Under the pieces are notes generated by a model, which had not been told where the DNA came from, made no database searches, and worked only from the letters and a program-made list of their open reading frames with translations. Below are positions 3,126 through 50,852 of a stretch of DNA of 55,108 nucleotides, in pieces. The DNA comes from Lentisphaerae bacterium ADurb.BinA184 (GTDB lineage: Bacteria; Verrucomicrobiota; Lentisphaeria; Oligosphaerales; MVZH01): contig MVZH01000003.1 in the NCBI GenBank assembly GCA_002068325.1, positions 1-55,108 on the forward strand, read 5' to 3'. Made by a program: the position numbers and the translations under genes. Position 1 is the stretch's first letter. Each line of letters begins with the position of its first letter.

Positions 3126-3184
3126 CCCGAAGGGCCAAAGGCCAGTACTCTTCACTTGGCGAAGCAGACCGTGGTCAAGAAAAA

Positions 3185-3398
3185 CTTGCAGAACCCCGGC
3201 ATGAGTGGGCCGGGATGCAACCCGAGCCTCCACCGGCCTCGACATGGACTGCCGTCTGTCGGGCTGGAGGGACGACCTCCGTGTCGTCCGGGTTCCGCGG
3301 CGGCAGACCGGGTCTTCGGGTATAACCTGGCGGACACGGAGGGCCGCCCTCCATCGCACGAGGCAGTTGTCGTCCGCGGGGGTTCTGCAAGCGCCTCA
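3185..3398 (+). repeat. R1 element, copy A (MITE-like, 214 bp)
   Basis: The ends are perfect 13-bp inverted repeats, CTTGCAGAACCCC at 3185-3197 and GGGGTTCTGCAAG at 3379-3391. They are followed by CGCCTCA, which is conserved among copies. Inside are two hairpins. The left one is GGACGAC/GTCGTCC with loop CTCCGT (3270-3289). The right one is GGCGGAC/GGCCGCC with loop ACGGAG (3329-3348) and one stem mismatch here. The two loops are exact reverse complements. There is no transposase. It has the same orientation as copies C and E. Confidence 0.85.
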
Positions 3399-3447: not shown

Positions 3448-3632
3448 CCCGAGCCATTCATGAACAAAGAGCCAACGGAGATAACGGAGGTATATCTCAT
3501 TGATTCGCAATAGCCTACGAATCAATGATGAAGCCGTCGGTTTCCACGCCTCCCAACCGCACGTAGGGTGGTAACCCCCTGCAACGCAAACCCTTCGTTG
3601 CCTCCGTTTCCTCTTTGTGAATAATTCAGGCT
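3448..3632 (+). repeat. R2 element, copy A (185-bp inverted-repeat element)
   Basis: The element is 185 bp, the same length as the copy at 22161-22345, which is in the opposite orientation. The ends are imperfect inverted repeats built on ATTCA..CAAAGAG and CTCTTTG..GAAT. An internal hairpin, TTGATTCG/CGAATCAA, is perfect over 8 bp. It is visibly more AT-rich than its surroundings. It has no coding capacity. The remaining stretch to 3759 holds nothing I can name; the whole 3126-3759 gap is therefore mostly R1-R3-R2. Confidence 0.75.
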
Positions 3633-5103: not shown

Positions 5104-5938
5104 GGCGGCCGTCCCCGGCGATGTCCACGACGCTGAGGCTGCCGGCCGCGGTGAGGGCGCCCGCGCAGACTTCCATGCCCGGGCCGGGGCCGTCGAGGCG
5201 GTAGGGGGAGTGGAGGTGCCCGCACAGGCTCAGGTCGAGGCGCCCCTGGGCGAGGGCCTCGATGATCAGGCCGGCGCTCCCGAGGCGGCGGCGGCGGGGT
5301 AACGGGGCGGCGTCGGGCCCCCGGGTCGGATAGTGGCCGATGAGCACACGCCGCTCGGCCGGCGGGCGCGGGGCGGACAGCCAGCCGGTCAGGGCCTCGG
5401 CGGCGGCGGGGGAGATCTGACCGGCCGAGGAGAACGGCCCGGTCGGCGTACACTCGTTGAGCATGAGGAAGCTGACGTTGCCGAGCCGCAGGGCGAAGGG
5501 CATCTGTTCGAGGCGGCAACGGCGGCCGTTGAGGAAGCGGAAGGTGTCCGCGAGGGCGGCGCGGCAGTCGCGGTCAGCCACGTAGGCGTCGTGATTGCCG
5601 GGCACGTAGAGGAGCGGGACGGGCACGGCTTGCATGAGGGTCTCGAGCCGGGCGCGGGCGCGGGCGAACTCGGCGGGGGAGCCGACGCAGGTCACGTCGC
5701 CGCTGCAGACCAGGCAGTCGGGAGTCAGCGCCGCGATGCGGGGGACGGCTAGGTCAAACCACTCCTCGTGCAACGTGCCACGGCGCCGGAGCAGGTAGTT
5801 GAGGCGTCCGAGCAGGCGCTTGTCAAAGGCCGCCGTCAAGCGGCCGGGGCGGGCGGTGAAGTGGAGGTCGGAGAGATGGACGATGCGCATGGCGGCGGCG
5901 GGGCCGGGCGCGGTGTCTGGCCGTGGCCGGTCGCTCAC
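5069..5938 (-). CDS. calcineurin-like metallophosphoesterase
   Basis: The protein is 289 aa. The family motifs appear in order: SDLHF (Asp24, His26), CSGDVT, the signature VPGNHD, GHYP and CGHLHSP. Together they form a two-metal phosphoesterase site. There is no signal peptide, so it is cytoplasmic. The GTG start at 5938 overlaps the kinase stop as GTGA, implying translational coupling. An alternative ATG at 5890 (MRIVHLSDLHF) would remove a 16-residue low-complexity leader, but neither start has a clear ribosome site. Substrate not predictable; nucleotide or phospholipid head-group hydrolysis are both possible. Pairing with a Ser/Thr kinase is suggestive but does not prove it is a protein phosphatase. 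Confidence 0.8.
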   Translation of the reverse strand: MSDRPRPDTAPGPAAAMRIVHLSDLHFTARPGRLTAAFDKRLLGRLNYLLRRRGTLHEEWFDLAVPRIAALTPDCLVCSGDVTCVGSPAEFARARARLETLMQAVPVPLLYVPGNHDAYVADRDCRAALADTFRFLNGRRCRLEQMPFALRLGNVSFLMLNECTPTGPFSSAGQISPAAAEALTGWLSAPRPPAERRVLIGHYPTRGPDAAPLPRRRRLGSAGLIIEALAQGRLDLSLCGHLHSPYRLDGPGPGMEVCAGALTAAGSLSVVDIAGDGRLSQRFLDLRPA

Positions 5939-13317: not shown

Positions 13318-13530
13318 TGAGGCGCTTGCAAAACCCCCGCAGACGACAGCTGCCTCGTGCGGTGGAGGGCGGACCTCCGTGTCCGCCAGGTCATACCCGA
13401 AGACGCGGTCTGCAGCGGCGGAACCCGGACGACACGGAGGTCGTCCCTCCAGCCCGGCAGACGGCAGTCCTTGTCGAGGCCGGTGGAGGCCCGGACTCCG
13501 TCCCGGCGACTCACGCCGGGGTTCTGCAAG
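13318..13530 (-). repeat. R1 element, copy B (reverse orientation)
   Basis: A 213-bp copy inverted relative to copies A and C. The ends are CTTGCAaAACCCC (13325-13337, one mismatch, preceded by TGAGGCG) and GGGGTTCTGCAAG (13518-13530). Both internal hairpins are perfect in this copy (GGCGGAC/GTCCGCC and GGACGAC/GTCGTCC). The element ends 17 nt before the ATG of the 1988-residue gene, so it fills that gene's leader. The long reading frame through it is accidental. Confidence 0.85.
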
Positions 13531-13547
13531 TCCCTCGGATGCCGGCG

Positions 13548-22160: not shown

Positions 22161-22345
22161 AGCCTGGGTTATTCACAAAGAGGAAACGGAGGCAACGAAG
22201 GGTTTGCGTTGCAGGAGGTTACCACCCCACGTGCGGTTGGGCGGCGCGGAAAGCGACGGCTCTCGCAGTGGCTCGCAGGCTATTGCAAACCAATGAGATA
22301 TACTTCCGTTATCTCCGTTGCCTCTTTGTTCATGAATAACTCGGG
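22161..22345 (-). repeat. R2 element, copy B (reverse orientation)
   Basis: 185 bp, the same length as copy A. The outer ends, GTTATTCA..CAAAGAGG and CCTCTTTG..TGAATAAC, are inverted repeats. Read in the orientation of copy A, the inner hairpin TTGATTCG/CGAATCAA has become TTGGTTTG/CGAGCCAC. Most pairs survive as G-C or G-U. The copy fills the gap between the MFS and URO-D-family genes. Confidence 0.75.
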
Positions 22346-23430: not shown

Positions 23431-23496
23431 AGCCGCCCAGTCTGTTCGCCACGACCATCCCCCTGCCCCGCCCCAATCGGCCCCTGACCCTCACCG

Positions 23497-23855
23497 AGTT
23501 CGCGAAAACGCCCGTGTTTTCACGAACTGCCGGGCACGGGAGGCATCCGGACTGTGTGCGGAGACAGCCTGCCGTTTTCGCGAACTGGGACGCCCGGCCA
23601 GGCCGGATCGAGTGCGTGAAAACGCCCGTGTTTTCACGAACTGCCGGACACGGGAGGCGTCCGGACTGTGTGCGGAGACAGCCTGCCGTTTTCGCGAACT
23701 GGGACGCCCGGCCAGGCCGGATCGAGTGCGTGAAAACGCCCTGTTTTCACGAACTGCCGGACACAGGAGGCGTCCGGACTGTGTGCGGAGACAGTCTGCC
23801 GTTTTCACGAACTGGGCCGCCCAGGCAGTCCCGGTCGAGTTCGCGAAAACGCGGG
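23497..23855. repeat. 114-bp tandem repeat, three units plus a partial
   Basis: The same 114-bp unit repeats three times, with unit landmarks (GAAAACG) at 23504, 23618 and 23732; a fourth, partial unit begins near 23846 after 113 bp. Each unit holds AGTKCGYGAAAAC followed by GTTTTCACGAACT, which pair as a hairpin of about 12 bp around GCCCGT, and then another GTTTTCGCGAACT. It fills the space between two convergent genes. There are no varying spacers, so it is not a CRISPR array. Confidence 0.85.
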
Positions 23856-40831: not shown

Positions 40832-40931
40832 GTGGGAGTCCCATGGCCGCGGTTCGCATCCTCGACCGCTTGTCCGGTTGGCGCAGGGAGGGGCATGTCC
40901 AAGGGGCCGCTTCCGGAGGCCAGTGGAGCCG

Positions 40932-41144
40932 CTTGCAGAACCCTGGCATGAGTGGCCGGGACGGAGCCCGGGCCTCCACCGGCCTCCACAAGGACTGCTG
41001 TCGGTCGGGCTGGAGGGACGACCTCCGTGTCGTCCGGGTTCCCTTGCGGGAGACCGGATTCTCGGGTATGACTTGGCGGACACGGAGGTCCGCCCTCCAT
41101 CGCACGCGGCAGTTGTTGTCGGCTGGGGTTCTGCAAGCGCCTCA
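40932..41144 (+). repeat. R1 element, copy C
   Basis: A 213-bp copy. The ends are CTTGCAGAACCCT (40932-40944, one mismatch) and GGGGTTCTGCAAG (41125-41137), then CGCCTCA. Both hairpins are perfect: GGACGAC/GTCGTCC at 41016-41035 and GGCGGAC/GTCCGCC at 41075-41094, with complementary loops. It sits between bamA and the lptG-type gene, upstream of the latter. Confidence 0.88.
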
Positions 41145-50763: not shown

Positions 50764-50852
50764 ATGGAGGGACGCCCTCCGCGGCGTCCGGGTCACGCCC
50801 GATGAACCGGATGCCCGGATACGACCTGGCGGACACGGAGGTCCGCCCTCCA
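50764..50852 (+). repeat. R1 element, core only (copy E)
   Basis: Only the hairpin core is clear. The left stem is GGACGCC/GGCGTCC (50770-50789, loop CTCCGC) and the right stem GGCGGAC/GTCCGCC (50828-50847, loop ACGGAG). Relative to copies A and C, one stem pair changed from A-T to C-G with both sides altered. The terminal repeats are not recognisable. It lies between the fusA-type gene and prs. Confidence 0.7.

Follow-up and report, generated by a model that had tools for sequence, protein, structure and literature searches.

Twin hairpins in a MITE-like repeat of a Lentisphaerae genome as a probable head-to-head heterodimer of GGAG-tagged REP units

The twin hairpins of the R1 repeat in Lentisphaerae bacterium ADurb.BinA184 are very probably a head-to-head heterodimer of GGAG-tagged REP units, carried within a MITE-like element, in which the single hairpin is the object of selection, most likely as a RAYT site. 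The loops of the two hairpins are complementary because one unit with a fixed loop stands in inverted orientation, and H1, a third R1 hairpin oriented like the right-hand one (H3), carries the loop of H3 and not its complement; the complementarity is thus a by-product of how the units are placed. The GGAG-tagged family is new within the REP/REPIN class, itself already known, and is nested in a MITE-like repeat. Our analysis started from a window of 55,108 nucleotides (contig MVZH01000003.1, positions 1 to 55,108), and the genome-wide counts refer to a sample of 1.95 Mb of the host genome that includes this window.

The window contains three R1 copies and a further dimer that lacks the R1 shell (Table 1). 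Read directly, the left hairpin of copy A (3270-3289) is GGACGAC-CTCCGT-GTCGTCC and the right one (3329-3348) is GGCGGAC-ACGGAG-GGCCGCC; the right stem is imperfect, with an A-G mismatch one pair from the loop (GGCGGAC/GGCCGCC), at a place where copies B and C carry GTCCGCC. Copy A is also degraded elsewhere: its H1 has decayed to a loop of ATGCAA, the outermost 6 bp of its left TIR have become GAAAAA, and its target duplication is not intact. An Rfam search of the window returned tRNA as the sole family match. Directly beside copy A lies a second dispersed repeat, at 3448-3632 and 22161-22345, in inverted copies that are 89% identical, and a 114-nt unit is repeated three times in tandem at 23495-23835 (96% and 78% identical).

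Table 1. Positions of the R1 copies, REP dimers and hairpin units in the window
Feature	Position	Strand	Details
R1 copy A, MITE-like shell	3179-3397	+	TIRs GAGGCGCTTGCAGAACCC / GGGTTCTGCAAGCGCCTC
Inverted REP dimer of copy A, REPIN-like	3265-3353	+	89 bp, TGGAG tags outside
H2 unit in copy A	3265-3289	+	TGGAG-GGACGAC-[CTCCGT]-GTCGTCC
H3 unit in copy A	3329-3353	-	TGGAG-GGCGGCC-[CTCCGT]-GTCCGCC, one stem mismatch
H1, third R1 hairpin	3207-3228 (approximate)	-	consensus GGCCGGG-ACGGAG-CCCGGCC
R1 copy B	13319-13536	-	dimer 13363-13451
R1 copy C	40926-41143	+	dimer 41011-41099
REP dimer without R1 shell	50765-50852	+	stems GGACGCC and GGCGGAC, loops CTCCGC / ACGGAG

The earlier note on this DNA had stressed that the two loops are exact reverse complements. 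This is true of copies A, B and C (CTCCGT/ACGGAG) but not of the fourth dimer in the window, nor of 18 of 56 dimers genome-wide. Its argument that matching loops in all full copies are unlikely to arise by chance is unsound as stated, because the copies share descent. Sound evidence comes instead from the stronger conservation of the two hairpins relative to the rest of the element: among 38 elements recruited by their ends alone, mean column identity was 97.5% and 99.2% in the hairpins, 83.5% in the spacer, 85-90% in the arms and 85% in H1, so that even in copies selected by their TIRs conservation is higher in the hairpins than in TIRs and arms. Together with the covariation of the stems described below, this identifies real and constrained hairpins, and the note is correct in that each dimer offers its unit on either strand.

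Hairpins of this kind occur far beyond chance. A census of perfect hexaloop hairpins with a stem of at least 7 bp gave 366 in 1.95 Mb, of which 111 carry the loop ACGGAG/CTCCGT, compared with 12 for the runner-up loop and 3 for the top loop in a local shuffle. The underlying unit is 25 nt long, TGGAG-[7-bp stem]-CTCCGT-[stem'], and is present at least 157 times in the 1.95 Mb, with a constant outer TGGAG tag and a few discrete, self-complementary stem types (GGCGGAC, GGACGAC, GGACGGC, GGCCGGG, GGACGCC). A 25-nt palindrome at such copy number falls within the broad sense of REP (20-40 bp palindromes of high copy number). In at least five units of two stem types, a 33-nt hairpin (CTGCCTGYGCC...GGCAGGCAGGC) is located at one point of the loop, AC^GGAG (L047, L077, L135, L161 and L040), representing either a loop-variant class or targeted insertion.

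Inverted dimers with a spacing of some 58 bp are the usual arrangement: the 157 units include 56 inverted head-to-head pairs, with tags outside and a spacing of 57-60 bp, an over-represented inverted REP pair with spacer such as defines a REPIN. Every pair combines a GGCGGAC-type with a GGACG-type stem (GGACG[A/G/C]C), without a single homodimer among the 56. The whole genome yielded 75 matches to a strict dimer pattern, and a reversed control none. Among the 49 dimers with called neighbours (genes were called with a simple home-made codon-based caller), 48 are intergenic, as is typical of REPs, even though coding sequence makes up about 85% of the total. With REP doublets (REPINs, PMC3116915) and BIMEs the family shares its short palindromes with a tag, its over-represented inverted pairs of fixed spacing, conservation above that of the spacer, intergenic location and occasional tandem arrays (here L086 16055-16460).

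The arrangement of the dimers allows the pairing proposed in the earlier note to be weighed against pairing within each hairpin. A kissing loop, or one long cruciform or hairpin, would require that the pairing between loops or arms is itself conserved, in DNA or in RNA. The exact complementarity of the loops in copies A-C is what such a structure would produce, and folding energies point the same way: with RNA parameters the long hairpin of copy A reaches -54.6 kcal/mol, its minimum-energy fold, versus -34.5 kcal/mol for the two-hairpin form, single copies likewise fold better as the long hairpin, and the RNAalifold consensus is the long hairpin on energy, without a compensated pair. The variation among dimers argues otherwise. 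Both loops are standard in 38 of the 56 dimers and one loop is altered in the other 18, with no compensated loop pair, which is the outcome, uncomplementary loops in intact copies, that the note had itself named as speaking against its proposal.

Covariation was examined in an alignment of 55 dimers, whose copies are related so that the cells counted are not independent events. The three-helix structure gave 22 double-change cells versus a shuffle mean of 5.1, a number reached in none of 500 shuffles, and all 22 fall within the two stems, mostly where column 11 pairs with column 20, a position that occurs as three pair types. The loop-loop helix showed 0 double changes in the same 55 dimers, with 9 one-sided wobble cells and 10 broken cells. 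In the long hairpin, 80.4% of cells are paired, four columns are never paired, there are 0 double changes, and its covariation score was equalled in 477 of 500 shuffles; in 22 of 55 dimers, compensation within a hairpin has broken its pair 20-71. The 33-nt hairpins inserted into one loop only, and neighbouring units in the same orientation, also argue against it. Thermodynamics of the naked strand favours the long hairpin, but evolution has kept two small hairpins; neither kissing loops nor a single long cruciform is supported as the maintained structure, and we consider conserved pairing between loops or arms very improbable.

R1 itself has the attributes of a MITE: it is 218 bp long, with 18-bp TIRs (GAGGCGCTTGCAGAACCC) and a 4-bp target duplication. 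The inner TIR motif TTGCAGAACCC occurs 113 times versus once for its reversed control, and exact 4-bp duplications border 28 of 79 candidate elements, a list that includes some spurious alternative ends, versus no more than 5 in any of 200 shuffles. Shortened derivatives (87-119 bp), which have internal deletions, retain the TIRs and have lost the dimer, whereas 15 of the 56 dimers lie beyond an R1 shell, in flanks without consensus past the tags. The dimer is therefore a module and R1 its MITE-like carrier. By eye, a second kind of TIR shell seemed to surround the non-R1 dimers, which an inverted-match scan did not support. When copy B plus flanking DNA was used to search two other genomes (G411/G412), R1 copies were recovered but no clear orthologous empty site.

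These attributes are also those expected if R1 were an ordinary DDE-type MITE, its hairpins being passengers or internal sites for a transposase or host factor, with no role for a RAYT. The TIRs with their duplications and the TIR-keeping derivatives without a dimer favour this reading, and all of the spread of R1 could be the work of a DDE transposase that uses the TIRs. This reading would account for the shell and not for the unit, however, since dimers occur without the shell and in other layouts in other genomes, and the hairpins are conserved above TIRs and arms; furthermore, a DDE_Tnp_1 search of the host matched a single gene, with no exact TIR nearby. We regard an ordinary MITE without RAYT involvement as unlikely. 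Like ERIC and NEMIS, R1 is TIR-bounded, of high copy number, associated with a target duplication and, at about 218 bp, too short to encode a transposase; what sets it apart from such MITEs is the REP dimer that forms its conserved core, and no autonomous partner emerged from the DDE_Tnp_1 search.

The hairpins could alternatively act after transcription, as RNA, for example as CsrA/RsmA-type sites. The sequence ACGGAG on a 7-bp stem fits the ANGGA hexaloop of such sites, and because each dimer has the unit on both strands, every transcript would present one ANGGA loop. The pattern of variation is the wrong one: no loop position varies more than the first G of GGA (ACAGAG in 13 of 157 units), whereas the free N of ANGGA is nearly invariant. 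No match to CsrA (PF02599) was detected in the genome, in which control profiles do match, and these results led us to reject CsrA-type sites. The orientation of neighbouring genes (30 co-directional, 11 divergent, 7 convergent) follows the available gap lengths and is unbiased beyond them, and an intrinsic terminator was likewise rejected, the gap that holds copy A having no terminator-like site. A function as RNA is therefore the least probable of the alternatives, and in our judgement extremely so.

The REP unit is also found in other genomes. A cross-genome scan that left the loops free recovered closely similar R1 copies, up to 92-94% identical, from MAGs with the labels Planctomycetota RA.bin114 and Verrucomicrobia UR.bin231, and detected TGGAG/CTCCGT units in a MAG of the Kiritimatiellae. 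The GGACG-stem unit pattern matched 51 times in a genome of the same phylum (G152) and 18 times in G413, a genome of the Kiritimatiellae, with a few matches in G411 and G412. Units of these four genomes have compensated stems (GGTCGGG, GGCCGGG, GGCCGAC, GGACGGC and others), and their loop is again CTCCGT. Their pairs are often tag-to-tag, about 40 bp apart, and same-orientation neighbours exist; because CTCCGT persists in both layouts, the loop belongs to the single unit rather than to the pair. A phylum-wide search with the GGCGGAC stem matched just 4 of 388 genomes, implying that copy number is lineage-specific. The scan with free loops also found the same stem pair in contigs of Ruminococcus and Oscillibacter, where the tag is GTAG and the loops differ (GCCCTC, CCGTGT, CTACGT and others). 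Two structural refinements were considered. Pairing of tag and loop (GGAG/CTCC) is possible by sequence and is kept as a lead, but loops of GTAG-tagged Firmicutes units mostly mismatch their tag and a pseudoknot in cis looks sterically poor. An 8-bp stem with a bulged T (a C1-G5 pair) was suggested by patterns in the loops across phyla, but folding gave preference to the hexaloop.

RAYTs read REPs as folded single strands and strand-specifically, recognising tag and stem and, in group 3, also the loop (PMC8266576). The host genome has three Y1_Tnp genes, including a RAYT-like gene, C9 (L077 4675-5280), that scores 70.8 bits, below the cut-off of 80 for NF047646 (NCBIfam). C9 is flanked at 5300-5720 by a tandem array of CAGGAGT-tagged hairpins in units of about 120 bp, a second REP family of this genome, and one TGGAG/CTCCGT dimer lies about 450 bp upstream of the gene. 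No RAYT immediately flanked by a TGGAG/CTCCGT REP was found; the host assembly is only 82% complete. In two genomes of the same phylum, RAYT genes above the cut-off (94.5 bits in G283, L248; 85.6 bits in G152, L236) are enclosed by inverted dimers in tandem that bear GTAG tags and have unequal stems. At L248 the stems of these dimers measure 7 bp, the hexaloops are CTCTGT and CTCAGC, and the tags are 86 bp apart, an architecture that almost matches that of the host dimers. Both loci are REPtron-like (L236 820-1960 and L248 480-1580). At L162, an IS200-type gene lies between repeated hairpins (1108-1230 and 1967-2090) of the forms GCACCCC-TGC-GGGGTGC and GCATCCC-TNC-GGGATGC.

From these comparisons we infer that the host units are recognised and mobilised by a RAYT in a step involving single-stranded DNA. 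The REP unit consists of a GGAG tag that stays unpaired, a stem of 7 bp and the fixed hexaloop CTCCGT, and the selected object would be the single hairpin on single-stranded DNA, with a RAYT most likely recognising tag, stem and loop and moving the dimer. Mismatches between partner stems disfavour one long hairpin, and in R1 the dimer rides inside a 218-bp element that has TIRs and a 4-bp target duplication of its own. The REP doublet has been described as the replicating unit, with a two-hairpin 'clover' proposed as the transposable fold (PMC3116915). We tentatively suggest that the host family is a heterodimeric REPIN kept as such a clover of two single-stranded DNA hairpins, its stems differing for local folding and its loop fixed for protein recognition, and that it was captured by a MITE with TIRs and target duplication, possibly giving it two routes of spread.

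Relative to known systems, the P. fluorescens doublets were reported with compensation across the long hairpin (PMC3116915), whereas the host dimers compensate inside each hairpin; the host family further differs from REP/REPIN elements in its GGAG tag, its strongly kept 6-mer loop and the lack of a RAYT found directly beside it. It resembles the GTAG REP super-family which, according to the text of PMC3733652, has 7-bp stems, a tag at one end, head-to-head and tail-to-tail dimers, heterodimers with different stems and loop variants with self-complementary inserts, and is present in Planctomycetes and Verrucomicrobia; the GTAG-tagged Firmicutes units with the host stems add to this likeness. 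The host tag is nevertheless GGAG and not of the GTAG type, and GGAG is absent from the GTAG degeneracies listed in the text of that paper. The host family works like the GTAG super-family and is not classed here as a member. No report of the unit sequences was found in the literature searched, where the single text match was an unrelated paper.

These results offer a simple rule for the puzzle that prompted the kissing-loop proposal, namely that a fixed loop in inverted copies yields complementary loops, and a warning against reading complementary loops of inverted repeats as evidence for kissing loops. They add a well-populated GGAG-tagged REP family that is common to distant PVC-type genomes. 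For one family, they also provide sequence evidence for the two-hairpin fold over the long hairpin, which was only a hypothesis in the REPIN paper (PMC3116915).
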